Shown piece after piece: positions 1,788 to 34,095 of a stretch of 64,000 nt of DNA. The notes beneath the pieces were generated by a model, which was given only the letters and a program-made list of their open reading frames with translations, ran no database searches and was not told the DNA's origin. The position numbers and the translations under genes are program-made. Location: contig NZ_JPOE01000002.1 in NCBI RefSeq assembly GCF_000733775.1, forward strand, positions 124,001-188,000. Direction: 5' to 3'. This DNA comes from Thiomonas sp. FB-Cd. GTDB lineage: Bacteria; Pseudomonadota; Gammaproteobacteria; Burkholderiales; Burkholderiaceae_C. Each line of letters begins with the position of its first letter. Position 1 is the first letter of the stretch.

Positions 1788-1797
1788 GGCATGCTCC

Positions 1798-7295: not shown

Positions 7296-7350
7296 AGTTG
7301 TCCACGGCGGCGGCGTCGCTTGCGACGAACGCAAGCCGCGGTGGACAACT
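7295..7350. repeat. Nested inverted repeat at the dynamin/IS junction
   Basis: The 10-mer AGTTGTCCAC near 7297 recurs inverted as GTGGACAACT near 7341-7350. Between them GCTTGCG and CGCAAGC form an inner 7-bp stem around ACGAA. The outer or inner pair may mark an end of the insertion or of an older nested element. I cannot match it to a known terminal repeat. Confidence 0.45.
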
Positions 7351-7374
7351 CGGGGCGCACCGGGGACTTCCATC

Positions 7375-11636: not shown

Positions 11637-11637
11637 C

Positions 11638-11919: not shown

Positions 11920-11920
11920 A

Positions 11921-14284: not shown

Positions 14285-14289
14285 GGCGG

Positions 14290-15729: not shown

Positions 15730-15768
15730 GCGCGCGATTCCTCAGTGGTGTTGGCGATCATGCGCATG

Positions 15769-18124: not shown

Positions 18125-19592
18125 GGTCGGCCCACTCCTCGATCTGCTCGATCTTCTCCAGTCCGTAACGTTCGAGCTTGCTGCGTAGGCCAACGCGCGA
18201 CAGCCCCAGCTCCTGCGCCGCGCGAGTCTTGTTCCAGCGATGGCGGATGAGGGTTTCCTTCACGATGCGCGCCTCCAGAGACTCCATCCGCTCCTTGAGT
18301 GAGCCGTCGATGCCGGCGAGCAGTTCGAGCGCCTCGGCCGCCTCCTCGGTGGTGCCGCGCAGGATATGCGGGGAGATCAGCTCGGCGCCGAGCTGGTCGG
18401 TGGGTGCCAGCACGAGCATCCGCTTGATCTCGTTCTGCAGCTCGCGCACATTGCCTGGCCAGTCGTAGGCCTGCAGGCAGGCCAGCGCTTCGTGCGTGAT
18501 GCCGCGCACCGTCTTTCCAAGTGTGCGCATGGCCTCCTGCAGCAGCGACTGCGCCAGCACCGGGATGTCGGTGCGGCGCTCGCGCAGCGGCGGAATGGCG
18601 ATGCTGAAGGTTGCCAGCCGGAAGAACAGATCCTGCCGGAAGCGGCCCGACCGCACCTCCTCCTTGAGGTCGCGGTGCGTGGCGGCCAGCAACCGTACGT
18701 CGACCGTGCGGCGGGTGTTGCTGCCCAGCGGGCGGATCTCGCCCTCCTGCAGCACTCGCAGCAACTTGACCTGGAAGGCGGGGGAAATGTCGCCCACTTC
18801 GTCAAGGAAGATCGTACCGCCGTTGGCACGCTCGAACAAGCCGATGCGATCTTCCACCGCGCCGGTGAAGGCGCCGCGTTTGTGACCGAACAGTTCGCTT
18901 TCCAACAGGTCGTCTGGCAGGGCGCCGCAGTTCTCGGCGACGAACGGCTTGTCGCCGCGCAGGCTGTTGTAGTGCAGGGCACGGGCGAACAACTCCTTGC
19001 CGGTGCCGGATTCGCCGCACACCAGCACGTTGACGTCGTAGGTGGAGACGGTGCGCACCGTGTCGCACACCGCGTTGAGCAGGCTGTCGGGCGCGCGGAT
19101 GATGCCCTGGTCCCAGTCGAAACGGGCCTGCAGCACGCGGCGCTTTTCCTGCAGGCTGTTGCTCAGGGTGGCAGGCTTGAGCTTCAGCTCGATGGAGAGT
19201 TGTTCGTTTTCGCGCTGCAGGCGGAACAGGTCCACCGCGTTGTGCAGTTTGAGAAGCAGGTCCGGGGGTGTCCACGGCTTGCTGATGAACTGGTAGATGC
19301 CAGCTTCGTTGATCGCCTCGATGATGTCTTCCGAATCGGTGTAGCCGGAGAGGATCATGCGGATCACCTCGGGCCACTGCTGACGTACCCGGGAGAGGAA
19401 CTCCACCCCGGTGGTCTCGGGCATGCGCTGGTCGCACAGGATGACCTGCACCCACTCCTTTTCCAGCAGCGCTCCCGCCGCTGCGGCGCTGGTTGCGCTG
19501 AGCACGTCGAAATCGTCCTCGAGCACGCGCGTGAGTGCCTCGACCGAGCGCACTTCGTCGTCGACGACCAGGATGGTGGGCTTGGCGGCCAT
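18117..19592 (-). CDS. hoxA: NtrC-family response regulator HoxA (sigma-54 activator)
   Basis: A 491-residue regulator starting at the ATG at 19592. The receiver domain (ILVVDDE, CDQRMP, KPW) is followed by an AAA+ sigma-54 interaction domain with Walker A GESGTGKELFA, the GAFTGA loop that contacts sigma-54, and Walker B GTIFLDEVGD. A Fis-type helix-turn-helix ends the protein (NKTRAAQELGLSRVGLRSKL). It is the probable activator of the sigma-54 promoter at 25363-25378. In C. necator the unphosphorylated HoxA is the active form; whether this holds here is unknown. Confidence 0.95.
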   Translation of the reverse strand: MAAKPTILVVDDEVRSVEALTRVLEDDFDVLSATSAAAAGALLEKEWVQVILCDQRMPETTGVEFLSRVRQQWPEVIRMILSGYTDSEDIIEAINEAGIYQFISKPWTPPDLLLKLHNAVDLFRLQRENEQLSIELKLKPATLSNSLQEKRRVLQARFDWDQGIIRAPDSLLNAVCDTVRTVSTYDVNVLVCGESGTGKELFARALHYNSLRGDKPFVAENCGALPDDLLESELFGHKRGAFTGAVEDRIGLFERANGGTIFLDEVGDISPAFQVKLLRVLQEGEIRPLGSNTRRTVDVRLLAATHRDLKEEVRSGRFRQDLFFRLATFSIAIPPLRERRTDIPVLAQSLLQEAMRTLGKTVRGITHEALACLQAYDWPGNVRELQNEIKRMLVLAPTDQLGAELISPHILRGTTEEAAEALELLAGIDGSLKERMESLEARIVKETLIRHRWNKTRAAQELGLSRVGLRSKLERYGLEKIEQIEEWADHG

Positions 19593-19600
19593 GGGTCGGT

Positions 19601-20524
19601 TCAGGCGGTGGGGGCGTCGGCACGCAGAGGCAGCGGGCGGCCGATCAGGCGGGTGCGGCGCGACAGGCGCAGCCATTCGTACCATGCGTCCAGCCCCTCG
19701 CCGCTGTGCGCCGAGACCAGCAGGATCTGCAGATCAGGGTTGACGCGCAGTGCGGCGTCGATGCAGCGATCAACGTCGAAATCCAGGTGGGGGAGGAGGT
19801 CGATCTTGTTGATCAGCATGACGTCCGCAGCGTGGAACATGTCTGGGTATTTCAGCGGCTTGTCCTCGCCCTCGGTCACCGAGAGAATGGCCACCTTGTG
19901 CGCCTCGCCGAGATCGAAGGCCGCTGGACAGACCAGGTTGCCCACATTCTCGATGAACAGCACGCCTCCCTGCTGCGGGTCGAGTTGGGTGATGGCGTGG
20001 CCGACCATGTGGGCGTCCAGGTGGCAGCCCTTGCCGGTGTTGACCTGCACGCTGCGCACGCCGGTGGCGCGGATGCGGTCGGCGTCGAGCGAGGTTTCCT
20101 GGTCGCCTTCGATTACCGCCAGATCAAATTCGCCGCGCAGGGCGGTGAGGGTACGGGTAAGCAAGGCGGTCTTGCCCGATCCGGGGCTGGAGACGAGGTT
20201 CAGCGCCAGGATGCCGCGCTGCCGGAAAAGCAGCCGGTTGTCGTGAGCATAGCCGTGGTTCTTGCTCAGGATGTTCTGTTCGATCTGCACCATGCGCGAC
20301 TGGCTCAACCCCGGCGCATGCGCACGCGCCGGGCCGTTGCCGTAGTGGTGGTTGGCACCGCCCGCCACCGCTTCCACCGCATGGGTGAGGTCGTGCGCAT
20401 GATCGTGTTCGTGCGCATGGTCATGGCCATGGTCGTGCGAGTGATGATGCGCGGCATCGGTGCCGGCCAGCGCGTGGCCATCGACGCGGGCCTCGTCCTC
20501 GGAACAACCGCAAACGGTACACAT
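19601..20524 (-). CDS. hypB: Hydrogenase nickel incorporation GTPase HypB
   Basis: HypB delivers nickel, with HypA, in a GTP-dependent step. The 307-residue protein starts [11 protein letters not shown], the high-affinity CxxCGC nickel site. A histidine-rich store follows (residues 26-44, [19 protein letters not shown]). The GTPase core has [11 protein letters not shown] (P-loop), [25 protein letters not shown] and NKIDLLPH. The start lies one base beyond the hypA stop. Confidence 0.96.
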
Positions 20525-20525
20525 A

Positions 20526-20867
20526 TCAGTCGACCTCCAGTTCCTTGATGCACATGTCGTCGCCTCCTTCTACCACCACTTGGTGGCCGCCGCAGAGCGG
20601 ACAGGGGTCGAAGCGTTGGGGGATGTCCACCCGCGTGGCGCAGGGGATGCACCAGGCCTGCGCGGGTGTGGTGTGAATCTCGAGCTCGGCGCCCTGCGCC
20701 ACGCCGTGCGCGGCAACCACGTCGAAGCAGAAGCGCAGTGCGTCCGCGTCCACCGACGACAGGGCACCGATGTCGAGAATCACGCGCCGCACCCGCTTGA
20801 ATTGCTGGACGCTGGCCTGCTCTTCGATGATCTGCACGATGCTTTCGCACAGCGACATTTCATGCAT
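20526..20867 (-). CDS. hypA: Hydrogenase nickel incorporation protein HypA
   Basis: A 113-residue nickel chaperone. The N-terminal [10 protein letters not shown] carries the nickel-binding His2 and Glu3. The zinc-binding domain has two CxxC pairs (WCIPC and DPCPLCG). The start at 20867 overlaps the end of hupK by 8 bases, and a longer upstream frame in the same phase is not coding. HypA works with HypB. Confidence 0.96.
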
Positions 20868-21909
20868 GGGCGGGCTCCGGCGCGGCTTGCGGTGTGGTGA
20901 ACTGCAGGGTGGCCAGCACGCAAGGGTCGATGGTCTGGACCACCAGTCGCGCCTGTTTCTGCACGGTTTCCAGCGTACCGGGCCCGATGCTTGCAAGCAA
21001 CTGCGCGGCCAAGCCCTGCGGATGGGAATTCCATTCGGTGGGGGCCAGGATACGGTAATGCGCGATGCGCTGGTGAGCGTCGAGTTCGGCATGGTGGATC
21101 AGGCGTCCGCGTGCACTGTCCACCCAGCCCAGGCCCGCCGCTGCGGGCGGGGGCGGGGCGGTATCGTCGCCCTGCCTGAGGGTGACGAGCACGGTGCAAA
21201 GATCCACCAGTCGTGCGGCCAAGCGCCCGAGCAGGCCATGGAGGGCTGCGGCAGTCACCAGCGGGTGGTCGCGGTGCCGGGCGGCCGGGCCGGTTTCTAG
21301 GCAGGCGCCGGCGTGGGTGGGCTGGCTGACGAACTCCAAGGTGTCGTCGGCAACGAGCGCAGTGCAGAGGCTGTCGGGCGGCAGCGATTCGAGCGTCGGC
21401 AGTTCAATGGCGGGCAGGGCGGTCGCGCAGCCGTACAGGGCGTCGAGCCAGCGCGGCGCCGCTGCCTCGACTGTCGACCGCGCCCAGCGGCGCATTGCGT
21501 CGATCGCGTCGAACGCCAGGAACTCGGCAGGCGGCAGCCCCATGGTGTGGTATCCCACCCAGTCGACCAGGGCGTCAAGGGCAGCCGGGTCTGCCGTGGC
21601 GGCATCGGTGCGGCAGACGATCTGTCGGAGGTCGTCGGGATTGGGTGGGGCGCCGCACAGCACGGGCCAGTCGCGGTGGATCTGCAGCAGGTGCTCGCGC
21701 ACGGTCTCGAACTGCACGCGGCAGTGCAGGGCGCGGCGCTGGGCTGCATTCATCGGCGGCAGCGAATCTCGCAGAGCATCACGCGCGGCGGCGAGCTGGG
21801 CATGGCCGCACAGGCTGAACAGCAGGGGCAGAAGCTGCACGGCCTGGGCGGCGGTGCGCCCTTCGAGCAAGCGCATGGCCTGCACCGGACGCTGGTTATT
21901 GATGTGCAC
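20860..21909 (-). CDS. hupK: HupK/HoxV scaffold protein for hydrogenase maturation
   Basis: A 349-residue protein distantly related to hydrogenase large subunits. It keeps surrounding sequence such as RILAPTEWNSHPQG and a C-terminal DPCV. It lacks the paired CxxC nickel ligands (the N-terminal site is absent and the C-terminal one is reduced to DPCVLATL). This is the signature of HupK/HoxV, a scaffold for the Fe(CN)2CO cofactor in oxygen-tolerant hydrogenases. The start is a GTG at 21909; an ATG at 21876 is an alternative. Confidence 0.88.
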   Translation of the reverse strand: MHINNQRPVQAMRLLEGRTAAQAVQLLPLLFSLCGHAQLAAARDALRDSLPPMNAAQRRALHCRVQFETVREHLLQIHRDWPVLCGAPPNPDDLRQIVCRTDAATADPAALDALVDWVGYHTMGLPPAEFLAFDAIDAMRRWARSTVEAAAPRWLDALYGCATALPAIELPTLESLPPDSLCTALVADDTLEFVSQPTHAGACLETGPAARHRDHPLVTAAALHGLLGRLAARLVDLCTVLVTLRQGDDTAPPPPAAAGLGWVDSARGRLIHHAELDAHQRIAHYRILAPTEWNSHPQGLAAQLLASIGPGTLETVQKQARLVVQTIDPCVLATLQFTTPQAAPEPAHA

Positions 21910-21979
21910 GACCCGTCCACCCGGGGCGGCGTCCCGAGGTGGATGTGTAGGTGTTGCTGAGCAGCGTGCATGGCGGGGC

Positions 21980-22456
21980 TCAGCGTTCGGAGCGGCCGAA
22001 CAGGAAGCTGCGCCGGGAGGCGATGCCTGCGGGCTCGTCGTCGGTGTCGGTGTCGAACATCAGCGCGAGCGCGTCGCGTGCGGCGGCCACGGCTTGTTCC
22101 TGGTTGGTGAATGCGTCCATCGGCGAGAAGAGCGAGCCACTGAGGTGGTGTCCGACTTGCGGCAGATGGGCTGCGAGCAGGCCGTAGCTGCCGGTGGGTA
22201 GATCCATCGCCCGCGTAGTGCCCACCTGGGCGGGTGGCAATTCCCGCCCACCGGGCAGCGACTGGGCAAACACGTTCATGCACCAGGGGGTGACGATCAC
22301 GCCGACGCACAACCCGTCCCATTCACGCAGGCCGACGGCCTCGACCCGCAGTGCGGGGTTGACGATGGGCAGGCCCAGCATGTGCGTGTTCTGGACGTGG
22401 CGGTATGCCTCCTCCAGCGAACGGCCGATGGGACCGATGTGAGCATTGGTGCTCAT
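21980..22456 (-). CDS. hupJ: HupJ/HoxT hydrogenase assembly chaperone (HybE family)
   Basis: A 158-residue HybE/HupJ-family protein (MLGLPIVNPALRVEAVGL, then GVIVTPWCMN). The family helps mature the small/large subunit complex and, in oxygen-tolerant systems, protects it in air. The start is the ATG at 22456, overlapping the rubredoxin stop by 4 bases. It sits in the usual hupI-hupJ-hupK order. Confidence 0.92.
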   Translation of the reverse strand: MSTNAHIGPIGRSLEEAYRHVQNTHMLGLPIVNPALRVEAVGLREWDGLCVGVIVTPWCMNVFAQSLPGGRELPPAQVGTTRAMDLPTGSYGLLAAHLPQVGHHLSGSLFSPMDAFTNQEQAVAAARDALALMFDTDTDDEPAGIASRRSFLFGRSER

Positions 22457-22674
22457 GTCTCGTCCCGTACCACCATGAAGTGCATGGCCTCGCCGTCGCA
22501 TTCGGGGCAGCGCCAGTGCTGCGGCAGTTGGCTGAACGGGGTGCCCGGTGCAATTTGCCATACCGGGTCGCCCACGGCGGGGTCGTATACGTACCAGCAG
22601 ATGCGGCACTCCAGCCGCGCGTGGTTGCGCAAGCGAGAGGCGTCGCCCATGTAGGAACCTTCGAAAGTGTTCAT
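22453..22674 (-). CDS. hupI: Rubredoxin HupI/HoxR
   Basis: A 73-residue rubredoxin with the two iron-binding CxxC motifs, LECRICWYVYDP and HWRCPECDG. The rubredoxin of hup/hox operons is required for full maturation of the small-subunit clusters under oxygen. The start at 22674 overlaps the hupH stop (ATGA-type coupling). Confidence 0.95.
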   Translation of the reverse strand: MNTFEGSYMGDASRLRNHARLECRICWYVYDPAVGDPVWQIAPGTPFSQLPQHWRCPECDGEAMHFMVVRDET

Positions 22675-23534
22675 TGGAACAGGGTGAGGATTTCGCGCAG
22701 GCGATCGGCAGTGTCTGCGAAGTCTTCTGGCGCCGCTAGTGCGACTTCCGGCACGTCGACGATCTCGATGGTGTTGAGGATCAGCGCGTCCTGCGAGTTG
22801 AAGTATTTGACCCACCACACGTTGGGCAGACGAGTTGCGCCGATGCGGCAGTTGCCGTACCCGCGCGAGAGAATGGTGGCCGGCCCCACGCCTAGCTCGG
22901 TGCCGAGGTGGATGAGGTCTTCGCGGGTCAGCGGCAGCAGGGTGAGATTGATGACGTGTGAGGGATCGCCGTGCGAGTAGTTGGCCATCTTGTCCGCGAT
23001 CTCGCTCAGCAGCGCCGGCGCGTTTTGCACGCCAGAGATGGGCGCGGCGTTGGGATCGAGCCGGCTCTCAGACAGCGCGGCAGAGTTGCTGGAGCGCACG
23101 GACTGAGGTATGTCGGCGATTTCGATATGGTCGGTCAGCACGTTCTGCACCGCATCGACTCGGCGAATGCGCCACACGCCGGTGAGTACGGCTTCCTGAG
23201 CCAGGATGGCACCGCCGGGCTGGTCGATGGTGACGCTGACCTCGCCTGCGCCGAGGATTTGGTTGATGCAGGCAAGGTCATCCGCGTCGAGACTTGAGAG
23301 ATCATGAGCGATGGCATCTTCTTCGCCTGGCGCGTAGGCGCGGGCGGTGACGAGCAAGTCCTCTAGAAGGTCGCGCACGCGGTGGCGATGGTGCAGATCT
23401 TCGGGCTCGGGCAGGGAGATGGAGTCGTGTGTGTACATCTCCTTGGGCATGGCCATGTATTCGAGGGTGTCATCTTCTACAGGTTGGCTGCCGGGACCGA
23501 CGGCGACGATTGGAATGTCGATGGACTTTGGCAT
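22671..23534 (-). CDS. hupH: HupH/HoxQ hydrogenase expression protein (HyaF family)
   Basis: A 287-residue HupH/HyaF/HoxQ protein. Recognisable segments are IPIVAVGPGSQP at the N-terminus, LGAGEVSVTIDQPGG in the middle, and SRGYGNCRIGATRLPNVWWV toward the C-terminus. With HupG it is a chaperone for the Tat-targeted small subunit. An ATG at 23534 is the first good start. Confidence 0.92.
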   Translation of the reverse strand: MPKSIDIPIVAVGPGSQPVEDDTLEYMAMPKEMYTHDSISLPEPEDLHHRHRVRDLLEDLLVTARAYAPGEEDAIAHDLSSLDADDLACINQILGAGEVSVTIDQPGGAILAQEAVLTGVWRIRRVDAVQNVLTDHIEIADIPQSVRSSNSAALSESRLDPNAAPISGVQNAPALLSEIADKMANYSHGDPSHVINLTLLPLTREDLIHLGTELGVGPATILSRGYGNCRIGATRLPNVWWVKYFNSQDALILNTIEIVDVPEVALAAPEDFADTADRLREILTLFQ

Positions 23535-23544
23535 GGTCGTGTGT

Positions 23545-23955
23545 TCAGGCGGGGATGATGGGAATGCGCGGGGCAGGTGGCCGCACCGGGCCCGCGTCGA
23601 GAAAGCCCTGGATCTGCTCCAGGTAGTCAGCCCAGTCCTGGATCTTGGAGATGGTGCCGAGGTACTGGTCCTTGCGGAGAAAAACAAGTGAAGGCCACAG
23701 TTCGAAGCCGTACATTGCCTGCAGGGTGCGCTCGTCTTCCCGTGCGACGACGGCCGGCGTAATGCGGCCATGGAAATGCCTGACCAACTCGGGCAGCACC
23801 ACGGCAACGTCGTTGGCCTCGGGGGTATTGGCGGGATCCGCGGTGAAGAACAGCACGGTGTTGTCGGCTGCGCGCAGCACGGCGTCGACTGTCTTCGTGG
23901 TCACGCGCGGATAGCCGAGTTCTTCGGTCAGACGGTCGATCAGCGAGGTTGACAT
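23545..23955 (-). CDS. hupG: HupG/HoxO chaperone (HyaE family, thioredoxin-like)
   Basis: A 136-residue HyaE/HupG/HoxO protein with a thioredoxin-like fold but no CxxC (segments VLFFTADPANTPEAND, GFELWPSLVFLRKDQYLG). It binds the Tat signal of the hydrogenase small subunit and prevents early export. It lies between hupF and hupH in the standard order. Confidence 0.9.
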   Translation of the reverse strand: MSTSLIDRLTEELGYPRVTTKTVDAVLRAADNTVLFFTADPANTPEANDVAVVLPELVRHFHGRITPAVVAREDERTLQAMYGFELWPSLVFLRKDQYLGTISKIQDWADYLEQIQGFLDAGPVRPPAPRIPIIPA

Positions 23956-23970
23956 TGGGGGTGGTTCCTT

Positions 23971-24294
23971 TCAGCGGTCAGGAGGGGCGGCTGCGCCGCG
24001 CAGGTGATCAGGTAGTTGGGGCTCGCGCCCCACCAGGTCGGCGAAGAGGCGGTCGACGTCGGGGGCCTCACCGCGCATCACGGCATCAAGCGCGGCGAGG
24101 GCATCCTGGATGCGCAGGGCCTCCTCGGGTTCGAGCAAGCCGCGCGCATGGCCGAGGAAGACCAGTACCCAGGTTCCCGAAGGTTGTGGGCCGACAAGGG
24201 ACATGTCGACCGCTTCCTGTGCGTCGCCTGGGCCGGCACACAGGGAGAAGAACTCGTGCATCTCGACGATGCACATGGGGCGGCCGATGCACAT
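23971..24294 (-). CDS. hupF: HupF/HoxL, HypC-family hydrogenase chaperone
   Basis: A 107-residue HypC paralogue beginning MCIGRPMCIVE, with the iron-binding Cys2. Members in this position assist HypC for oxygen-tolerant membrane hydrogenases. It is longer than HypC at the C-terminus (ends in LPDHLRGAAAP). It is two bases from the hupD stop. Confidence 0.93.
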   Translation of the reverse strand: MCIGRPMCIVEMHEFFSLCAGPGDAQEAVDMSLVGPQPSGTWVLVFLGHARGLLEPEEALRIQDALAALDAVMRGEAPDVDRLFADLVGREPQLPDHLRGAAAPPDR

Positions 24295-24296
24295 GA

Positions 24297-24998
24297 TCAG
24301 AGGGGGCGACGGCTGTCAACGTTGACGCTCAGGCGCGGCCAGGCGTCGTGCTGGTGTTTAGGATCGAAGCGAATGTCCGGGTCTGCCAGCACACGTGGAT
24401 CCCCGGTGCGCAGAGCGGTCTTGGCGTCAGGCCGGCCTGCCTCGTAGCGGGTCTGGTCGAGCGCCTGCGGGCTTAATTGCTCGGACTGGGCCAGCGGTTC
24501 GGCGCGGTACCTGGCCTCCACGCCCAGCCGTGCCAGCCAGCGCAGGCCTGCGGTGATGGCCGGCTCGATCTGCGCCTTGACCAACTCGGTGAGACTTCCG
24601 CCGAAGTCCTCCAGCGTATGGGGCTGCACGCCGACCAACGCGAGCTGGCGCCGCTTGCCGCCGAGCAGCTCAGCCGTCATCAGAACCTCCTGGAATCCGG
24701 TCTGGTGCAGACTCATCTTCTTCGCGCCCATGAAGCGGGGCACGTCTTCGCCGATCACGCAGTGCAGCGAGCCGGGCTCCAAGCCGTAGTCGACCGCGTC
24801 GAACACCAGCAGTATGTCCGCGTCCTGAACATGGTGGACGAGGTAGATCCCCTGTGTGCCGCCGTCCATCAGGCGCACGTTGTCGTCGAAGTGATGGGTG
24901 CGATGCAGTGCCTCCACGGCACGCACTCCGAATCCTTCATCGGCCCAAAGCAGGTTGCCGATGCCCAGGATGAGCACCGACGGTTGATTGTCCAGCAT
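24297..24998 (-). CDS. hupD: Hydrogenase maturation endopeptidase HupD/HoxM
   Basis: This protease removes the C-terminal tail of the HupL precursor after nickel insertion. I use the ATG at 24998, which has a GGAG site seven bases upstream; 25016 is an alternative. The metal-contacting residues are present: GIGNLLWADEGFG (Glu) , FDAVDYG (Asp), and SLHQTGFQE (His). At 233 residues it is longer than typical (about 200), with an extra hydrophilic tail after residue 165. It is the first gene of the minus-strand operon. Confidence 0.94.
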   Translation of the reverse strand: MLDNQPSVLILGIGNLLWADEGFGVRAVEALHRTHHFDDNVRLMDGGTQGIYLVHHVQDADILLVFDAVDYGLEPGSLHCVIGEDVPRFMGAKKMSLHQTGFQEVLMTAELLGGKRRQLALVGVQPHTLEDFGGSLTELVKAQIEPAITAGLRWLARLGVEARYRAEPLAQSEQLSPQALDQTRYEAGRPDAKTALRTGDPRVLADPDIRFDPKHQHDAWPRLSVNVDSRRPL

Positions 24999-25436
24999 GG
25001 CGTTGTCTCCTTGCATCTGGTTGCTCCGCGGTCAGGGGTGGAAACCGGCCTGCCGGGATGCGCTTTCCATCGAAGTGAGCAAATGCAATGCCAGCCCCGC
25101 TGGTCGCGCTAAGTGCCTGATTGCATTCAGATCTGACGCTGGCTTTCCAATGCGGCCTGGAATAACTGCAAAACAGGTTTCCACATAAGCGAATGAAATG
25201 GAATAAAGGTATGCACTGAAATGGCGGTGGTCGCCAGAGTGGCAGGAGCGGTTAGCTGGCTTCCAGTGCCGCATCGACGCCGGCTATGCGGCGACCTGGG
25301 GTAAACCATGAAATCCACGGTTCTGCACAGCTAATTCTTTGATTTTTCTAGGGGTAATGCACTGGCACACGAATTGCATTCGACTGGCAGCACAAAGGGC
25401 TTCCGGTGGAGCCGCAAAACTAGGAGGAGGCAGGCC
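24999..25436. promoter_or_regulatory. Divergent control region between hupD and hupS
   Basis: The 440-base region between the two hydrogenase operons holds a strong sigma-54 site toward hupS (listed separately) and an AT-rich tract around 25330-25350 that could be an IHF site. Toward hupD the minus strand carries TTGCA with GG ten bases upstream (plus positions 25085-25098), a partial sigma-54 match with a good -12 and a poor -24. No gene is visible in either strand. Confidence 0.6.
25363..25378 (+). promoter_or_regulatory. Sigma-54 promoter of hupSLC
   Basis: TGGCACACGAATTGCA matches the -24/-12 consensus TGGCAC-N5-TTGCA. GG (25364-25365) and GC (25376-25377) are separated by exactly ten bases. 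Transcription should begin near 25389, about 48 bases before the hupS ATG. HoxA, encoded at 18117-19592, has the GAFTGA loop needed to activate it. Confidence 0.88.
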
Positions 25437-26537
25437 ATGTCGGTTACGGAAACGTTCTACGAAGTCATGCGGCGCCAGGGCATTTCACGTCGCAGTTTTC
25501 TCAAGTACTGCAGCCTGACGGCGGCGGCGCTGGGCCTGGGCCCGCAATACGCGAGTGAAATCGCCTACGCGATGGAGAACAAACCTCGCCTGCCGGTGCT
25601 CTGGCTTCATGGGCTGGAATGCACCTGTTGCTCGGAGTCGTTCATCCGCTCGGGTCACCCGTTGGCCAAGGACGTGATTCTGTCCATGATTTCGCTGGAC
25701 TATGACGACACCCTGATGGCCGCTGCCGGCCATCAGGCGGAGGCCATCGTCGAGGAGGTTGTCACCAAGTACAAAGGCAACTACATCCTTGCCGTGGAAG
25801 GCAATCCGCCGCTGAACGAGGACGGCATGTACTGCATCATCGCCGGCCAACCCTTCGTGGAGAAGCTGCGCTACGCGGCGAGCAACGCTAAGGCCATCAT
25901 CTCCTGGGGCTCATGCGCCTCTTGGGGCTGCGTGCAGGCGGCCAAGCCAAACCCGACGCGGGCGACGCCGGTGCACAAGGTCATCACTGACAAGCCGCTC
26001 ATCAAGGTGCCGGGGTGCCCGCCGATCGCCGAGGTGATGACCGCAGTGATTACCTACATGCTCACGTTCGACCGCATGCCCGAGCTCGACCGCCAGGGTC
26101 GGCCGAAGATGTTCTACAGCCAGCGCATTCACGACAAGTGCTACCGCCGGCCGCATTTCGATGCCGGCCAGTTCGTCGAGGCCTTCGACGACGAGGGCGC
26201 GCGCCGCGGCTACTGCCTCTACAAGATGGGCTGCAAGGGACCGACCACCTACAACGCCTGCTCGACCACGCGCTGGAACGACGGCGTGTCCTTTCCCATC
26301 CAGTCCGGCCATGGTTGCATCGGCTGTTCGGAGGACGGGTTCTGGGACAAGGGCTCCTGGTACGCCCACCTTACCGACATCAAGCCCTTCGGCGTCGAAG
26401 CCAATGCCGATGAAATCGGAGCGGCTGCCGCCGGTGTGGTGGGCGGAGCCGTGGCGGTGCACGCCGTGGTCAGCGCAGTCAAACGTTTGCGCAGCAGCAA
26501 GCAGAGCGAGACGGAACACAAGGGAGATAACGAATGA
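25437..26537 (+). CDS. hupS: Oxygen-tolerant uptake [NiFe] hydrogenase small subunit (group 1d)
   Basis: The electron-transfer subunit (HupS/HoxK/HyaA). ATG at 25437 with a strong AGGAGGAGG site. A Tat signal (RRSFLK at residues 18-23) is followed by an AYA cleavage site at about 45. In mature numbering the proximal cluster has Cys17, Cys19, Cys20, Cys115 and Cys120: ECTCC and GSCASWGC. Cys19 and Cys120 are the two extra cysteines that give the 4Fe-3S cluster of oxygen-tolerant group 1d enzymes. A C-terminal membrane helix ([16 protein letters not shown]) anchors it to the periplasmic face. It overlaps hupL by ATGA. Confidence 0.97.
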
Positions 26538-28351
26538 GCACGGTGACCACCCCCAACGGCTACACGCTGGACACCTCGGGTCGGCGCGTGGTGGTCGATC
26601 CGGTCACCCGGATCGAGGGCCACATGCGCTGTGAGGTCAATGTCGACCAGGACAACATGATCCGCAACGCGGTGTCCACCGGCACCATGTGGCGGGGCCT
26701 GGAAGTGATCGTCAAGGGTCGTGACCCGCGCGACGTCTGGGCCTTCGTGGAGCGCATTTGCGGCGTCTGCACCGGCTGCCACGCGCTGGCGTCTGTGCGT
26801 GCGGTCGAAGACGCGCTAAATATTAAGATTCCAAAGAACGCCTATCTCATTCGCGAAATGATGGCCAAGACCCTGCAGGTCCACGACCACGTGGTGCACT
26901 TCTATCACCTGCACGCGCTGGACTGGGTAAACCCTTTGAACGCCCTCAAGGCCGATCCGAAGGCAACGTCGGTGCTGCAGCAGACGGTGTCGCCGAACCA
27001 TCCGCAATCCAGCCCCGGCTACTTCCGTGATATCCAGTCGCGCATCAAGAAGTTCGTGGACTCGGGCCAGCTTGGGCCGTTCAAGAATGGCTACTGGAGC
27101 AACCCGGCCTACAAGCTGTCGCCCGAGGCCGACCTGATGGGTGTCACGCATTACCTCGAAGCGCTGGACATGCAGCGCGAGTTCGTGAAGGTGCACACCA
27201 TCTTCGGCGGCAAAAACCCACACCCCAATTACCTGGTGGGCGGCGTGCCCTGCGCCATCAATATGGACGGCGACCTCGCCGCAGGCGCTCCACTGAATAT
27301 GGAGCGCCTTGAGTTCGTGCGCAGCCGCATCCATGAGATGGTGGAATTCTGCAGGAACGTCTACGTGCCCGACGTGATTGCTATCGCCAGCTTCTACAAG
27401 GATTGGCTGTACGGCGGTGGGCTGGGCGCCAAGAGCGTGATGGACTACGGAGACTACGCCAAGGTGCAATACGACAAGTCAACCAACCAGATGCCTGGCG
27501 GCGTCATCCTCAACGGCAATTGGGATGAGGTGTTCGAGGTCGATCCGCGCGATCCGGCCCAGGTCCAGGAGTTCGTGACCCACTCCTGGTACACCTACCC
27601 GGGGCAGGAGAACAAGGGACTCCACCCCTGGGACGGCATAACCGATCCGAAATTCGAGCTCGGCCCCAACACCAAAGGTACCAAGACCAATATCCAGGAG
27701 ATCGACGAGTCGGCCAAATACTCATGGATCAAGGCGCCACGCTGGAAAGGTCATGCGGTGGAGGTTGGGCCGCTATCTCGCTACACGCTGGCATACGCCA
27801 AGAAGTTCCCGCATCAACGCGAACAGGTGGACCGCGGCGTGGCGTTCTTCAACCAACTTGCCGGCACGAATTTGGATGCAAAGGCCGTTTTGCAGACCAC
27901 GATCGGCCGCACCTTGGCGCGCGCCCTGGAGGCCGAGTATTGCGCCGACATGATGGTGGATGACTGGAACGACCTCATCGCCAACATCAAGGCGGGCGAC
28001 ACGGCGACCGCCAACATGGAGAAGTGGGACCCGAGCACCTGGCCCAAGGAGGCCAAGGGCGTTGCGACAGTGTCTGCCCCGCGTGGCGCGCTGGGTCACT
28101 GGGTGCGCATCAAAGATGGTCGCATCGAGAACTACCAGGCCGTGGTGCCAACCACCTGGAACGGATCGCCGCGCGATCCAGCCGGGAACATTGGCGCTTT
28201 CGAGGCTAGCCTGATGAATACCAAGATGGAGCGCCCGGACGAGCCAGTCGAGATCTTGCGCACCCTGCACAGCTTCGACCCCTGCCTGGCCTGCTCCACT
28301 CATGTGATGAGCGAGGACGGAAGTGAACTCACCCGGGTGAAGGTGCGCTGA
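26534..28351 (+). CDS. hupL: Uptake [NiFe] hydrogenase large subunit (group 1d)
   Basis: The catalytic subunit, 605 residues (HupL/HoxG/HyaB). The L1 motif [11 protein letters not shown] (Cys76, Cys79) and L2 motif DPCLACSTH (Cys584, Cys587, His590) bind the NiFe centre. The 15 residues after His590, [15 protein letters not shown], are the tail removed by HupD. H2 oxidation feeds electrons through HupS to the cytochrome HupC. Sequence and partner place it in group 1d. Confidence 0.98.
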
Positions 28352-28353
28352 CA

Positions 28354-28383
28354 GCGTGGCCTGCGCCTTTGGCCGGGCCACGC
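28354..28383 (+). other. Intergenic hairpin between hupL and hupC
   Basis: GCGTGGCC (28354-28361) and GGCCACGC (28376-28383) form an 8-bp GC-rich stem with a 14-base loop, starting two bases after the hupL stop. No poly-T follows, so it is not a classic terminator. It could stabilise the hupSL message or lower hupC expression. Confidence 0.5.
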
Positions 28384-28408
28384 GCCATTGACCAATCAGG
28401 AGACAAAC

Positions 28409-29128
28409 ATGAGCGCGCAGTCCACGCATCAAACCCATGCCGAGCCGGCGGTGTATGTTTACGAGGCACCGATCCGATTATGGCACTGGATCCAGTTCTT
28501 TGCCATCGCGACGTTGTGCGTGACAGGGTTTTTTATCGGCCATCCGTTGCCCAGTCAGCCGGGCCAGGCCTACGACCACTTCCTGATGGGCTACATCCGT
28601 TTCGCCCACTTCACGGCAGCGTACATCTTCATCATTGGCTTTTTATTTCGCATCTACTGGGCCTTCGCGGGCAATTTGCATGCCCGCGAAATCTTTCTGC
28701 CGCCCTTCTTTCGAGGCGAGTACTGGCGCGGTGTTTGGCATGAGATTAAGTGGTACCTGTTTCTCGCCCGCGAGCCGAACAAGTATTCAGGTCACAACCC
28801 GCTCGCCATTCTGGCGATGCACGTCATGTTTGTGTGGGGATCGATCTTCATCATCCTCACTGGGCTCGCCCTATTCGGCGAGGGAACGCTGGAAGGTTCA
28901 TGGCAATACGATTGGTTTTCGTCATGGATCACCCCGATCTTCGGACAGCCCCAGGCTGTGCGCACCGCGCACCATTTAGCGATGTGGTACCTGATCACGT
29001 TCATCCTCGTGCACATCTACGTGGCTATTCGCGAGGACATCATGTCGCGCCAGTCCATCGTCAGTTCCATGATCAGCGGCTGGCGGACCTTCAAGGACAC
29101 CCGCCGTGTCAAGGGTGACGAGTTCTGA
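28409..29128 (+). CDS. hupC: Hydrogenase b-type cytochrome HupC/HoxZ
   Basis: A 239-residue membrane di-heme cytochrome b that anchors the HupSL dimer and reduces quinone. I start at the ATG at 28409, preceded by AGGAG. Four to five membrane segments are seen, with heme-ligand histidines in RLWHWIQFF, YIRFAHFTAAY and the RTAHHLAMW/ILVHIY pair. The family segment NPLAILAMHVMFVWG is clear. It is 57 bases after hupL. Confidence 0.95.
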   Translation: MSAQSTHQTHAEPAVYVYEAPIRLWHWIQFFAIATLCVTGFFIGHPLPSQPGQAYDHFLMGYIRFAHFTAAYIFIIGFLFRIYWAFAGNLHAREIFLPPFFRGEYWRGVWHEIKWYLFLAREPNKYSGHNPLAILAMHVMFVWGSIFIILTGLALFGEGTLEGSWQYDWFSSWITPIFGQPQAVRTAHHLAMWYLITFILVHIYVAIREDIMSRQSIVSSMISGWRTFKDTRRVKGDEF

Positions 29129-29198
29129 GTAAACTCCTCGGGGCGGTGCTCATGTCGGCCGCGTCCTGCCATCTAACCGACATTCTGGGATTGATCGC

Positions 29199-30404
29199 TT
29201 GAACTGCGATGCAACAGCCGTGCTGACGCCCCGCCCACGTGCGCGCGGGCTGGGCGCCTTGAGGTTTGATCGAGATGAGTGGGCGCAGCTCGCCGGCTAC
29301 TACGGCTTTATCGTCGTGCTGCACCTTGCCGGATGGGGGCTCTACCTTTATTACGCCGAGCGTTACCCTGCGATGATCGGTCTGGGGCTGACGGCCTACC
29401 TCTTCGGGCTACGCCACGCCTTCGACGCCGACCACATCGCCGCTGTCGACGACACCGTGCGGCTGCTCGTGCAGGAGGGCAGCAAGCCCCTCGGCGTCGG
29501 TTTTTTCTTTTCTCTGGGCCATTCCACGGTGGTCTTCCTGCTGACGGTGTTCGCCGCGTTCATGGTGAGTGCTGTGAAGACCCATATGCCGGAGATGCAG
29601 CACATTGGCGGTATCCTGGGTACGGGCGTGTCCGGCATCTTTCTGGTGATCATCGGGGCGCTTAACCTGTTGATCCTGCTCGATCTGCTCAAGGTATGGA
29701 ACGGAGCTCGACGCGGGGTGCACGACCATCATCATGTGAATACCTTGCTGGCCAAGCGCGGCCTGTTCTACCGGCTGTTCGGCGGACGGTTGCAGCGGGT
29801 CATCAAGCAAAGCTGGCAGATGTATCCGGTGGGGTTCCTGTTCGGCCTTGGGTTCGATACGGCGTCCGAGATTGGCCTGCTGGCCATGACCGCAGGCGCT
29901 GCCACGGGCAACCTACCGGTTCCGGCCGTGCTGTCGCTACCCATTCTGTTCACCGCGGGGATGTCCGCCATGGACACCACAGACGGCGTTCTGATGACCA
30001 AGGCCTACGGCTGGGCGCTGGCCAACCCGCTACGTCGGATCTTCTACAACATCAGCACCACCTTGCTGTCGGTGCTGGTCGCCCTCGTCCTGGGTGGCGT
30101 TGAGTTGCTGCAGGTGATCATCCCCGCCATCGGCTGGCAGGGCAGGGTAGCCGATGCTATCGTGAACCTGAACCTCGGTGATCTGGGCTATCTGATCGTC
30201 GGTCTGTTTTTGGTCGCGTGGCTGTCGTCGCTGGTCGCGTGGGCGCTGGGCTACAAGCGTCGAGCGACCCAGGCGGTTGCTGAGCCGACGCTGCACCGCC
30301 ACGAGCATGCCCACGACGACGGGACCAGCCACGAGCACTTTCACTGTTCGCGCCGGCCGCAGACTGAGCCAGCCTACCGACAAATCGGTGAGCCATACCA
30401 ATGA
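29199..30404 (+). CDS. hoxN: NiCoT-family high-affinity nickel permease (HoxN/NixA type)
   Basis: A nickel/cobalt permease supplying nickel to the hydrogenase. It has eight predicted membrane segments and the NiCoT signatures RHAFDADHIAAVDD, FFFSLGHSTVVF and LFGLGFDTASEIG. The tail is histidine-rich (HRHEHAHDDGTSHEHFH). The frame opens at a TTG (29199) with GGGA upstream; a GTG at 29220 is also possible and no ATG fits before the first helix. It follows hupC by 70 bases and is probably in the same transcript. Confidence 0.93.
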   Translation: MNCDATAVLTPRPRARGLGALRFDRDEWAQLAGYYGFIVVLHLAGWGLYLYYAERYPAMIGLGLTAYLFGLRHAFDADHIAAVDDTVRLLVQEGSKPLGVGFFFSLGHSTVVFLLTVFAAFMVSAVKTHMPEMQHIGGILGTGVSGIFLVIIGALNLLILLDLLKVWNGARRGVHDHHHVNTLLAKRGLFYRLFGGRLQRVIKQSWQMYPVGFLFGLGFDTASEIGLLAMTAGAATGNLPVPAVLSLPILFTAGMSAMDTTDGVLMTKAYGWALANPLRRIFYNISTTLLSVLVALVLGGVELLQVIIPAIGWQGRVADAIVNLNLGDLGYLIVGLFLVAWLSSLVAWALGYKRRATQAVAEPTLHRHEHAHDDGTSHEHFHCSRRPQTEPAYRQIGEPYQ

Positions 30405-30462
30405 TTGCGGAACGCGCATGAAGCTTCGGTATCGTCTTGCGGTAAGCGGCTCAGCGAGAGAC

Positions 30463-30929
30463 GTCGTTAGTCCGCCGAGATTTGGCTCATTCACCGTCGG
30501 CGGCAACACCCCGAGATCATCTTGGAGGGCTGGACGACAAGCTTGCCCAAGGCCATCAGCGCCGAGGCGATCATCGACCTGTACGCCGGGCACGCCACGC
30601 ACGAGCAGTTCCATGCGGAATTCAAAACCGACATGGATCTGGAGCGACTGCCCTCGGGGAAGTTCGACACGAACGATCTTGTCTGCCAGCTTGCGGCCCT
30701 GACGATGAACGTGCTGCGCCTCATGGGTCAGCAAGGGCTGCTGGGGCCGCATGCACCGGTGCGCCATGCGGCCAGGCGACGGCGTCTGAAGACTGTGATC
30801 CAGGAGATTGTCATCCGCGCAGCACGCGTGATCAACCATGGCGGGCGGCTGTGGTTGGGACTGGGCGCCAACGACAATGCAGCCCGTGCCTTTTGCGATC
30901 TGCATGCGCAGTTCGCCGCCAGCGGCTGA
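30463..30929 (+). pseudogene. IS1380-family transposase remnant (C-terminal)
   Basis: The frame reads EIWLIHRRRQHPEIILEGW and continues through AGHATHEQFHAEFKTDMD and LPSGKFDTNDLVCQLAALTMN, the C-terminal part of IS1380-family transposases. An in-frame stop lies just upstream (near 30460), and the catalytic N-terminal two-thirds is missing. A DHAT-rich ATG at 30522 would give only 135 residues. It is a dead mobile-element fragment at the 3' edge of the hydrogenase locus. Confidence 0.75.
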
Positions 30930-31363
30930 AGACGCAGCACGCGCTTGTTCAACCCCACTGGACACCAACATCAAGGACTCGGCGGGAGAATGGCTGCGCG
31001 CAACCCATCCGAAATGACCGATCAAGGGGGCCCATCGTCTGCGCACGGCCCCAAAAGCATCATCGCCACGGTGATCGACCCATGAATCTGTGGGCAATCG
31101 GGAAAATTGGCACGCCACGATCAGATCTCAGGTCAGTGGATTATCCAAGGTCACGGATTCAGGAATGTTATCTGCCCACTCTATTACGATCGCCGTCTAC
31201 TCGACCTGTTCCAGCATCGGCAAATCTGGCCGGAGCCCTTCAGGATGCGAGATTTGACATCCAACTCGCCCTCACCCTGATTGACCGACAGAACCAACAT
31301 GCAGTTCCAACACGCCATTTCAGATGCCCGTACCTCGCTTGAGATCGTCGTTTGAGTGCTTGC
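30930..31363. other. Intergenic stretch between IS remnant and integrase
   Basis: No gene, RNA or terminator is recognisable in these 430 bases. Confidence 0.4.
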
Positions 31364-32413
31364 TTACCCTAGCTTCTGCGCCAACTTCTCCGCCTCGATG
31401 TGGGTGTAGCGCTTGAGCATGGCGAGTGACTTGTGGCCGGTCATCGAAGCCACTTCCATGACGCCAAGGCCTTTCTCGAACAAGCGCGACGTGGCTTCGT
31501 GGCGCAGATCGTGGAAGTGCAACTCGGCCAGGAATGCCTGATCGGGCTTCTTGGCAGACTTGGCGCAGTCGGCTTGATACGCAGCCAGGGCGCGGGCCTT
31601 GCAGCGCTGCCAGAGCTTTTCAAAGCTACCGTTTTCCTTGTTTGGCTTCCACGAGAACACTTTGCAATCGATCCTGCGTGGCAGGTTTTGCAGGGCTTCT
31701 ACGGCAGCGCTGGACAGAGCCACGGTGCGGCTCTCGCCATTCTTGGTGTCCATCAAGTGCGCCGTGCGCCGCTGCAGATCGATCCGTTCCCATTCCAAGC
31801 CGAGCAATTCGCCCATGCGCATGCTGGTCTCTACTGCCAGCACGATGACTTGGCGAAGGCCAAGCGCCCGCCCTTGATCTGCGCCCTTGAGCAAGTAATC
31901 GAGTTCACCTGGCCGCAAGCGCCGATCCCGTGCCTTTGGCTCGGCGGGCTTGCGAACCGTGCGCACTGGGTTGCCGGCAGGGAGCGGGATCGACAGCTCG
32001 CGCTCGGCGAATGCGAAGAGAGTGGATAGGGCGACCAGATGATGCTTTGCGGACTTCGGGGCATAGCCCTCGGCGATCAGATGATCGCGCCATGCTGCAA
32101 CATCGATGCTGCGGATGTTGCCCAGGAAAAATGCTCCGAAGCGCGTCTCGATGTTGCGCAGCAGGGTTGGCCTGGCCGCATCGCGCAGCGTGGGCAGCAC
32201 CGATACCCGGTAGCGTTGGCACAGCTCCGCTACAGTCACACGCTGCGCCTGATCGTTCAGCGCCGCGATGTTGCCGCGCTGCGCTTCGCGCTCGACCTCA
32301 CGTGCCCATGCTTCGGCGTCAGCCTTGAGGTCAAAAGTCCGACTGAGCGATGGCATGCCCCGCCTGCGGATTTGTGCTCTCCACCCGTTTTTGCGTTGTT
32401 CGATATGCGCCAT
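31364..32413 (-). CDS. int: Tyrosine recombinase (phage/island integrase)
   Basis: A 349-residue tyrosine recombinase starting at the ATG at 32413 with GGGGGAA upstream. It has the Arm-DNA-binding domain (KNGWRAQIRRRG), a SAM-like core-binding domain (SIDVAAWRDHLIAEG), and a catalytic domain with ETSMRMGELLGLEW (Arg), HDLRHEATSRL (His-x-x-Arg-His) and TGHKSLAMLKRYTH (His and Tyr nucleophile). The 5' end faces the tRNA-Arg fragment 90 bases away, the usual arrangement for an integrase next to its attachment site. It probably mobilised the hydrogenase region to its left. Confidence 0.95.
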   Translation of the reverse strand: MAHIEQRKNGWRAQIRRRGMPSLSRTFDLKADAEAWAREVEREAQRGNIAALNDQAQRVTVAELCQRYRVSVLPTLRDAARPTLLRNIETRFGAFFLGNIRSIDVAAWRDHLIAEGYAPKSAKHHLVALSTLFAFAERELSIPLPAGNPVRTVRKPAEPKARDRRLRPGELDYLLKGADQGRALGLRQVIVLAVETSMRMGELLGLEWERIDLQRRTAHLMDTKNGESRTVALSSAAVEALQNLPRRIDCKVFSWKPNKENGSFEKLWQRCKARALAAYQADCAKSAKKPDQAFLAELHFHDLRHEATSRLFEKGLGVMEVASMTGHKSLAMLKRYTHIEAEKLAQKLG

Positions 32414-32499
32414 GCATTCCCCCTGGATTCCCCCAAATAGCCTTGTCAAAAACTTGGAAACCTTGCAATCATTGGCTTGCAAGCCTAATGCAATTCTGG

Positions 32500-32544
32500 C
32501 TACGAACCAAGGGGTCGTGGGTTCGAATCCTGCCGGGCGCACCA
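32500..32544 (+). other. Attachment site (attR): 3' fragment of tRNA-Arg(ACG)
   Basis: The sequence matches the 3' part of an Arg(ACG) tRNA: anticodon loop CTACGAA (32500-32506), T-loop stem GTGGG/CCTGC around TTCGAAT, acceptor strand CGGGCGC (32534-32540), discriminator A and CCA (32542-32544). The matching 5' acceptor strand GCGCCCG and D arm are absent, and the anticodon stem mismatches. It is therefore a duplicated tRNA end created by site-specific integration, not a functional gene. The intact tRNA should sit left of this window. Confidence 0.8.
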
Positions 32545-32578
32545 GTCTTGCTAAGAAAAGCAACATGTTTTAAAGAAA

Positions 32579-32604
32579 AGCCCACACATTAACGTGGGCT
32601 TTTT
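32579..32604 (+). terminator. Rho-independent terminator after the tRNA-Arg fragment
   Basis: AGCCCAC (32579-32585) and GTGGGCT (32594-32600) form a stem with an 8-base loop, followed by TTTTT. It is presumably the native terminator of the tRNA-Arg gene, left at this end by the integration. Confidence 0.85.
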
Positions 32605-32901
32605 CGCCTGTGTGGGCATTCCATGCCCGCGCGTGAATGGGGTCGCGGGACCTCGGTGAGCCTTTTGCGCGATCGCTTCCCGCACGGGATGGGCGATGAT
32701 TCTGCGTCCAGATGATCACCCCCGCCAACCACCAAAGCGGGTGGCATTTCCCTTGGACAATTTCCTCGCCTCGATGTCATGCTGTAGGGCCTGAGCGTGG
32801 GCGCGCTCTAGCGTTCCCCCATCCTGGCGCCCTCCGTGGCCACAATGCCCTTGTCGGGGACCATGCACAATGCATCCGCATTCCTCTATGACCCTCAAAC
32901 C
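32605..32901. other. Intergenic stretch upstream of livK-like gene
   Basis: About 300 bases of high-GC sequence with no recognisable gene or RNA. It presumably includes the promoter of the gene that follows. Confidence 0.4.
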
Positions 32902-34095
32902 ATGACTGGCAACTCCCGCGTTGCGCGTTTCACTGTTTGTCTTTTGGCTCTGGCCTGCAGCGGGCTGGCGCGGGCTGGCGCGCCTGATGGCTTAGCTAGC
33001 CCGCGCCAGACGACGCCGGATCAACAACCTTCGATGACCGTCGTTATCGGCAGTGCAGCACCTCTTTCCGGAGCGCAGGCGGCATTCGGGACGGACAATA
33101 CCGACGGCGTGCGCATGGCTATCGACGATCTGAACAAGAGAGACATCCAAATCGGCGGCCACAGGGTGGTTTGGAGGCTCGACGCGCAGGACGATAAGGC
33201 GGATCCGTCAAGGGCAGTGCAGGTGGCGCGAAGATTTGTCGCCGAGCATGTGAATGGCGTGATTGGCCACTTGAACTCAAGCTGCACAGCAGCTGCCGCG
33301 CCGATCTATGCATCGGCTGGCATTCCAGAGATCACGCCATCGGCCAGCGATCCGAAAATTGCGCAGCACGGCTATCGGTCCTTTTATCGCATTATTGCGA
33401 ACGATTATGCGATCGGTGCCGGCCTCGCGTTGTATGCACAGAAAGGCCTGAAGGCAAAAACAGCGGCCATCGTGGACGATGGGACTGACTATGGCAGCAG
33501 TATTGCGCAGGCCTTCGCGCGTGTAGCAAAGTCCTTAGGGATCCAGATTCTGGATCAGGAAAGCGTGAACCCGACAGCAACCAAATTTGAAGAGATCGTC
33601 GACAAGATCGGGCGCCTTGAACCGGACGTTGTGTTCTACGGCGGCATGGCACCTCAGGCCAGCACTTTGTTGCAGCAAATGCGCAGACAAGGCAGCAAAG
33701 CGCGATTCCTTGGTGGCGACGGGATCTGCACGCCGGAGTTTGCCAAGCTAGCGGGCACGGCTGCGAATTCGAACGTCATCTGTGCCGAAGGCGGCGTGCC
33801 CATGGCGAGAATGCCCTCCGGCTCGGCGTGGAAGGATCGCTTCGATGCCCAATTCGGCGCCTCGACTTTTCAACTCTATGCGCCTTACGCCTATGACGCC
33901 ACAATGCTGTTGGCGCAAGCGATGATCGAGACGGGCTCCGTGAGCCCCCAGATTTACCGCCATGCCATTCGGCACATAGGCTATGACGGCGTGACCAAGA
34001 GCAACATTCAGTTCAACAGCGACGGCGAACTTGTTGATCCCGCAATCACGATTTCGAGTTTTCCGGGTGGCCACAAAACAGCGCTCAGCCGATGA
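32902..34095 (+). CDS. Branched-chain amino acid-type periplasmic binding protein (LivK family)
   Basis: A 397-residue type-1 periplasmic binding protein. The ATG at 32902 gives a signal peptide (SRVARFTVCLLALACSGLARA). Segments VVIGSAAPLSGAQAAFG, NGVIGHLNSSCTAAAAPIY and DDGTDYGSSIAQAF are typical LivK ligand-site regions. It would bind an amino acid or similar small molecule for an ABC importer, but no permease or ATPase gene is nearby, so the partner transporter is elsewhere or lost. A terminator follows at 34153. Confidence 0.88.
   Translation: MTGNSRVARFTVCLLALACSGLARAGAPDGLASPRQTTPDQQPSMTVVIGSAAPLSGAQAAFGTDNTDGVRMAIDDLNKRDIQIGGHRVVWRLDAQDDKADPSRAVQVARRFVAEHVNGVIGHLNSSCTAAAAPIYASAGIPEITPSASDPKIAQHGYRSFYRIIANDYAIGAGLALYAQKGLKAKTAAIVDDGTDYGSSIAQAFARVAKSLGIQILDQESVNPTATKFEEIVDKIGRLEPDVVFYGGMAPQASTLLQQMRRQGSKARFLGGDGICTPEFAKLAGTAANSNVICAEGGVPMARMPSGSAWKDRFDAQFGASTFQLYAPYAYDATMLLAQAMIETGSVSPQIYRHAIRHIGYDGVTKSNIQFNSDGELVDPAITISSFPGGHKTALSR

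Follow-up and report, generated by a model that had tools for sequence, protein, structure and literature searches.

An integrative and mobilizable element of 65.85 kb very probably occupies the 3′ half of a tRNA-Arg(ACG) gene in a Thiomonas-like bacterium, and its right end lies within the window, the 64-kb stretch of DNA analysed here (G000:C2:124001-188000, in an assembly of 4.39 Mb and six contigs). The element has a relaxase and a NikA-like protein at its left end and an integrase at its right end. This mobilizable element of 66 kb includes a full set of genes for the use of hydrogen gas, and hydrogen use can therefore probably move between strains as one package. Since exact borders, empty sites and siblings are known, the spread of lithotrophy between related bacteria becomes testable. 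The features are collected in Table 1. Genes were called with a home-made ORF picker, and gene starts are approximate.

Table 1. Features of the element and its borders, in window coordinates or, beyond the window, in coordinates of contig C2 of G000.
Feature	Location	Strand	Remarks
Intact tRNA-Arg(ACG)	C2:90616-90692		beyond window, in left 33.3 kb of element
Left core copy (attL side)	C2:90645-90694		beyond window
Left arm repeats	C2:90773-90805		beyond window
Relaxase	C2:90971-93181	-	PF03432, LPD7, TraI middle domain; beyond window, left end
NikA-like protein	C2:93156-93467	-	
DUF3987 protein	C2:94755-96506	-	
CHC2-type protein	C2:96503-96928	-	
PIN-domain gene and small partner	C2:98183-98874	+	
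In-window part of 65.85-kb element	window 1..32546	.	
In-window end of hyf-like module	window 1..2742	-	whole module C2:119239-126742
Junction zone	window 3431..8205		GGDEF fragment, PQQ-repeat protein, MFS-like fragment, dynamin-like gene, rve-type transposase
Hydrogenase locus, 21.7 kb	window 8727..30404	.	
Hydrogenase small subunit	window 25374..26537	+	
Hydrogenase large subunit	window 26534..28351	+	both CxxC pairs present
IS-like repeated remnant	window 30509..31164	.	between hydrogenase locus and integrase
Tyrosine integrase, 349 aa	window 31364..32413	-	PF00589; R, K, HxxR, H and Y positions by inspection
Right arm-type repeat ATTCCCCCTGGATTCCCCCAAA	window 32416..32437	+	two nt before integrase start codon; left end has same motif and orientation
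attR core	window 32497..32546	+	50-bp exact copy
Terminator-like hairpin with T run	window 32575..32604	+	after attR
livK-like gene	window 32836..34095	+	first gene of right flank; adjoins tRNA-Arg in empty sites of G001 and G011

The tRNA-Arg site and the borders of the element

An earlier note on this DNA had described a tyrosine integrase facing a 45-base tRNA-Arg 3′ end that lacks the 5′ half and is followed directly by a terminator, and had read this arrangement as attR. The description holds, as ARAGORN calls no tRNA within the window and a hairpin with a T run follows the fragment; its length is corrected to the 50 bp that are shared. The intact tRNA-Arg(ACG) that was to be sought on the left is present 33 kb from the window, and the attR reading is borne out by this partner, by the exact repeat and by empty sites in relatives. 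The shared core consists of the final 48 nt of the tRNA and a GT, and its two copies have the same orientation and are 65,852 bp apart. Thus an intact tRNA stands at one border and a copy of its 3′ part at the other, as in other tRNA-inserted genomic islands. A 31-nt tRNA pattern has only these two matches in the G000 genome at up to three mismatches. Twenty mononucleotide shuffles of the 116-kb region shared at most 10-13 nt with the tRNA in an unbroken run, against the 50 observed, which excludes a repeat arising by chance. Tandem elements with a common internal att site were rejected, there being two core copies in the 116 kb and at least 22 mismatches in 50 elsewhere. The G+C content of the island is 0.648, compared with 0.633 and 0.609 in the flanks, and lends weak backing to the island reading.

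The integrase matches PF00589 with an E value of 3.9e-27, obtained on a longer 400-aa frame, and by inspection the R, K, HxxR, H and Y positions are present (HDLRHEAT...TGHKS...YTHIEAEK). The open frame extends to window position 32566, through the core. The start at 32413 (MAHIEQRK) is conserved in three of four relatives, the fourth being truncated before it, and places the integrase next to the att site, with 83 nt between start codon and core.

We propose that the integrase would bind the ATTCCCCC arm repeats and join a circular attP to the 3′ end of the tRNA by recombination. The tRNA would keep its own 5′ half and receive its 3′ half from the element, whose left end would supply a replacement terminator, while the native 3′ half and terminator would be pushed to the far right as attR. 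The hairpin beyond attR is accordingly presumed to be the native tRNA terminator; the terminators at the two G000 borders are 0.75 alike over 75 nt, which makes the replacement-terminator reading weak. The right arm repeat lies directly before the integrase start codon, so that binding of integrase could also dampen its own expression.

Is the site found uninterrupted in relatives? We looked for the livK-like protein in 60 relatives and compared the six best-matching loci other than that of G000. In two of the six (G001 and G011) the left-flank genes (asparagine-synthase-, sugar-transferase-, aldolase- and MurJ-like), the tRNA-Arg and the livK-like gene form one stretch. These are empty sites, with the tRNA-Arg directly before the livK-like gene as the earlier note had anticipated. 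At the G014 locus a tRNA fragment precedes livK, and the G023 contig ends within the core. No tRNA lies near livK in G021 and G006, the two closest by that gene, and the genes upstream are different; this counts against the integrative and mobilizable element, as does a different element at the tRNA-Arg of G014. G003, whose MurJ-like protein is 96% identical, has an intact tRNA-Arg followed by a terminator that resembles the right G000 border (0.79 over 75 nt) more than the left (0.68). Its contig ends 72 nt on, and this cut site is a point against the same reading. In G021 the sequence after the tRNA-Arg is more like the left G000 border (0.81 vs 0.72), and its contig (L188) has no arm repeat at up to six mismatches. 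Both comparisons are moderate evidence only, because of the likeness between the two G000 borders themselves.

Hydrogenase genes at this site without the integrase, which would have spoken against the earlier note, were seen in no relative examined. G011 has an empty tRNA-Arg site and its hydrogenase at another place in the genome; G010, G013 and G015 exclude less, because there the hydrogenase block and the tRNA-Arg are on separate contigs. An occupied site is found in a metagenome-assembled genome named Thiomonas intermedia (DYKQ01000041.1). Its contig carries residues 1-300 of an integrase, and these are 92% identical to ours; 82 nt away, 51 nt repeat the tRNA-Arg 3′ end exactly, and a RecC-like gene follows. 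In G292 and G099 an intact tRNA-Arg is followed directly by the RecC-like gene, with a similar terminator, and the site is therefore occupied in the former genome where it is empty in these two.

The tRNA-Arg gene is a hotspot. The tRNA pattern occurs in 23 of the 30 genomes searched, with two copies in four of them (G014, G015, G019 and G022). In G014 (C3:1917498-1995474) the same tRNA-Arg holds a different, ICE-like element of 77.9 kb with a 50-bp repeat, in which an integrase-like gene at the left end and conjugation genes were recognized by eye and a VirB4-family match lies at C3:1982542. In G022 (C24:16415-17589) and G019 (C11:323270-324315) the intact tRNA is accompanied, at a distance of about 1 kb, by a second copy of the tRNA-Arg 3′ end, and the interval contains no large element; these copies are possibly remnants or very small elements. 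They are the kind of case that could be cited for regarding the fragment in the window as a chance or duplicated tRNA remnant with no tie to integration, but the empty sites already contradict that explanation, as do the siblings, the arm repeats and the adjacent integrase, and we consider it scarcely credible.

Mobilization module, arm repeats and sibling elements

The integrated element encodes its own relaxase. This scores 371 bits against the cut-off of 250 for the NCBIfam TraI/MobA(P) family NF041893, in addition to its PF03432 match, and belongs to MOB-P. The VirB4 family PF03135, the one marker family used, has no match in the whole G000 assembly, whereas five of the eight genomes covered by the search do have one. 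By this single marker there is no conjugative T4SS of its own, as expected of an IME and contrary to the T4SS-encoding ICEs of the Tn4371 family; a self-transmissible ICE was set aside on the same absence. The element is therefore best read as integrative and mobilizable, requiring a helper. A prophage was provisionally set aside, as no phage structural genes were found among the island proteins scanned with Pfam, which cover part of the island genes. A plasmid origin was also rejected, the plasmid relatives of relaxase, integrase and hydrogenase giving no sign of it. The 4375 records for the relaxase are all below 60% identity and none covers 80%. For the integrase there are 2610, of which 187 cover 80% and five have 60-80% identity over part of the query, the eight listed being below 40% identity. 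The hydrogenase gives 166, none covering 80%, with five at 80-90% identity over part and ten listed at 72-75%.

Five backbone genes are flanked by two inverted copies of a 126-bp intergenic sequence (C2:94146-94271 and 97913-98040) for which a strong hairpin is predicted and whose TACCTTGCCC end is conserved. G292, G014 and G214 retain both copies, one of those in G292 having a degenerate stem as judged by eye. This is a candidate oriT, which the MOB-P relaxase and the NikA-like protein would nick; transfer would rely on the T4SS of another element and take the hydrogenase locus and the hyf-like module along as cargo.

Just inside each core lies an exact copy of ATTCCCCCTNGATTCCCCCAAA in the same orientation (C2:90784-90805 and C2:156416-156437, the latter being the right repeat of Table 1). 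These two are the sole matches in 116 kb at up to three mismatches; at up to five there are two more, one of which is the adjacent left repeat, compared with none or one in ten mononucleotide shuffles. The looser pattern ATTCCCCCTNNATTCCCCCAAA at up to one mismatch finds 17 sites in eight of 31 genomes, and the reversed pattern, used as a control, finds none. A tRNA 3′ end adjoins 15 of the 17 sites and an integrase of this family adjoins eight. An intact tRNA lies 88-100 nt before the motif at six sites, a tRNA-Pro 3′ end is present at one (L207), and a tRNA 3′ fragment follows the motif at eight, two of these recognized by eye. The two sites without a tRNA end are L215, with an integrase and no tRNA tail, and L217, with left-end-like sequence. 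At L129 the repeat is found only when three mismatches are allowed, and it is not found at all at up to six mismatches beside two integrases of 53% and 51% identity (L046 and L048). Position and repetition suggest that the ATTCCCCC repeats are the arm sites of the integrase, and the repeat provides a simple tag with which to find the ends of this element family in other genomes. In G000 itself it occurs three times, at both ends of the element and beside a second integrase of the same family (60-65% identity; C2:1603872-1605014), where a tRNA-like 3′ tail lies 104 nt off; this probably marks another element of the family.

Siblings of the same layout, relaxase on the left and integrase on the right, occur at other tRNA genes. 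That of G292 lies in tRNA-Pro(GGG), with a 53-bp repeat and a length of 28.6 kb. Eight of its backbone genes have 94-100% protein identity to those of G000, apart from a piece of the relaxase at 88%; transposase-like genes interrupt that relaxase, and the integrase is 69% identical. The G214 sibling, in tRNA-Pro(TGG), has a 47-bp repeat and is 24.1 kb long, with a relaxase 59% and an integrase 56% identical to those of G000. By gene lists, the cargo of both differs from that of G000. In G099 an arm repeat follows a tRNA-Thr(TGT), and 23 kb further on there is an integrase with another arm repeat and, at one mismatch, the 3′ part of the tRNA-Thr; this is probably another sibling with the same layout. 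For the tRNA-Pro element of G014 no right border was found within the 72 kb examined. A terminator-like hairpin is common to the left ends that follow tRNA-Arg (G000) and tRNA-Pro (G292, G214, G014 and G006).

The backbone DNA is 94-97% identical to G014 and G292 (97% to the latter), compared with about 71-77% to G014 in the flanking DNA, from which we infer that the backbone moved recently. Integrase and backbone have different nearest relatives, since the 97% backbone identity to G292 contrasts with 69% for the integrase protein. Such a discrepancy might be expected if a left relaxase element and a right integrase element had been fused by deletion, yet the arm repeats are exact at both ends, there is a single att pair and the same layout recurs in G292 and G214, so we regard fusion as improbable. 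We lean, by a modest degree, towards a modular family of integrative and mobilizable elements in Thiomonas-like bacteria, with one arm repeat at both ends and a near-identical mobilization module that, joined to various integrases, has been redirected among tRNA-Arg, tRNA-Pro and tRNA-Thr genes, and of which one member carries the whole hydrogen-oxidation kit. If this is true, hydrogen lithotrophy can be passed on as one mobilizable unit.

Relation to known islands

Hydrogenase genes on integrated islands are already known, as are tRNA-associated islands in Thiomonas, one of them with a hydrogenase. Thiomonas sp. 3As has 19 islands, ThGEI-A to S (PMC2829063), and strain CB2 has ICE19 and RGP10, the latter island encoding a hydrogenase (PMC4589449). 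Thiomonas islands are described with tRNA 3′ ends, direct repeats, many integrases and composite cargo (PMC2829063, PMC4589449). They belong to the same or a neighbouring genus and resemble our element in tRNA 3′ insertion, repeats and composite cargo; however, the passages concerned contain no description of the present tRNA-Arg element, of its common arm repeats or of the family with relaxase on the left and integrase on the right. CMGI-2 and CMGI-3 of Cupriavidus metallidurans CH34 are of the Tn4371 family and carry hyp/hox hydrogenase genes, and that genome also has six hyf genes (hyfBCEFGI) (PMC2864759). Like the present element these are integrated mobile islands with hydrogenase genes in a betaproteobacterium, but as described there they carry T4SS genes, whereas the G000 genome has no VirB4-family match and our element is inserted in a tRNA gene. 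In Hydrogenovibrio SP-41, from a different group of bacteria, the hydrogenase cluster lies in a strain-specific region that is largely a predicted genomic island, and the word 'relaxase' is absent from the text of that source (PMC6501319). IMEs in general are described as combining an integrase with mobilization genes and borrowing a conjugation machine (PMC5704250, PMC5357655), as here. At 65.85 kb the element is larger than its two measured siblings. Literature searches on Thiomonas hydrogenase islands, on ICEs or IMEs with hydrogenase and on IMEs at tRNA-Arg yielded no description of it.

The cargo and its history

The att sites enclose the hydrogenase locus, as the earlier note had supposed, and also the hyf-like module, which it had thought possible. 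The cargo comprises phosphatase and HIT-domain genes, an MFS transporter, a transposase, a MoxR/DUF58/VWA block, MgtC, a cyclopropane synthase, an enolase, two MutS-domain proteins, the hyf-like module, the junction zone and the hydrogenase locus. The last contains maturation and accessory genes (HypE-like, HypD, HypC, HypF, HypB-type, HypA, HybE- and HupH-type accessory genes and a maturation protease), a sensor and regulators (large and small subunits of a sensor-type hydrogenase, a histidine kinase and a sigma-54 activator), small and large uptake subunits, cytochrome b and a NicO nickel transporter. The large-subunit-like protein of the hyf-like module (C2:122123-123643) has no CxxC pair at all, and that module is therefore probably not a hydrogenase. 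The statement that IS remnants occur only on the left holds if left is taken as inside the element; the IS-like stretch of Table 1 sits 200 bp from the integrase. At least nine copies of it occur in G014 at 91% identity and one more elsewhere in G000 at 85%, and the frame covering it has no Pfam match. The transposase at C2:101976-103331 lies in 1.6 kb of DNA that is about 100% identical to five copies in G099, from another genus group, indicating recent IS exchange.

The cargo is a mosaic of segments with different nearest relatives. The segment at 99.3-111.7 kb is nearest to G003 (88-93%), that at 113.8-116.6 kb to G006 (91%), and the hyf-like module to G001, G014, G099, G214 and G292 (82-92%). 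The hydrogenase is 88% identical to G011 and G015 over 16.7 kb, and 76-85% to G010, G013 and a second G015 contig. When window 12600-32560 was used as query (E 1e-30) against 31 genomes including G000, some match was found in 29, many of them short and two in G021 weak; G003 and G006, which are 86% and 82% complete, had none. Around the hydrogenase block in G010, G011, G013 and G015 the flanking DNA examined, a single side in G013 and in one G015 contig, gave no integrase in a crude motif test; the sole tRNA predicted there, a tRNA-Phe of 99 nt, lies 13 kb from the block in G011. At locus L130, an integrase that is 93% identical over residues 136-349 has different genes behind it in the 3 kb seen.

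In G000 the hydrogenase is within the element, and the integrase may have brought it in. A serious competitor, to which we give a little short of an even chance, is that the element is real but acquired the hydrogenase once it was integrated, through IS activity or homologous recombination; the integrase would then never have moved the hydrogenase into this strain, though it could now move it out. Such later loading would accord with the change of nearest relative between the backbone, the 99.3-111.7 kb segment, the hyf-like module and the hydrogenase; with transposase or IS-like sequence on both sides of the hydrogenase locus; with the hydrogenase flanks examined elsewhere, in which no integrase was flagged, and the different genes behind the L130 integrase; and with C. 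metallidurans, where IS elements are credited by the authors with loading hyp/hox onto islands (PMC2864759). Yet a mosaic is also expected of an element loaded before its arrival, and a self-comparison reveals no pair of matching IS copies bordering the hydrogenase block.

Some further observations concern hydrogenase genes elsewhere. The blocks at G011:C4:619398-636063 and G015:C259:33009-49674 score 20850 and 20849 bits against G000, and the next genes on the hyp side are common to both, though these are different species entries. Genes beside the block at G010:C44:43173-49982 resemble Tn7-type transposition genes by eye. Outside the element, G000 has a second hydrogenase large subunit, 67% identical, at C2:1695078 in the region C2:1676812-1697923, where further matches to the hydrogenase locus lie near it. 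Two riboswitches are present in the window: a fluoride riboswitch beside the hyf-like module (2781-2851, minus strand) and a tandem glycine riboswitch before gcvT (34980-35232, plus strand).
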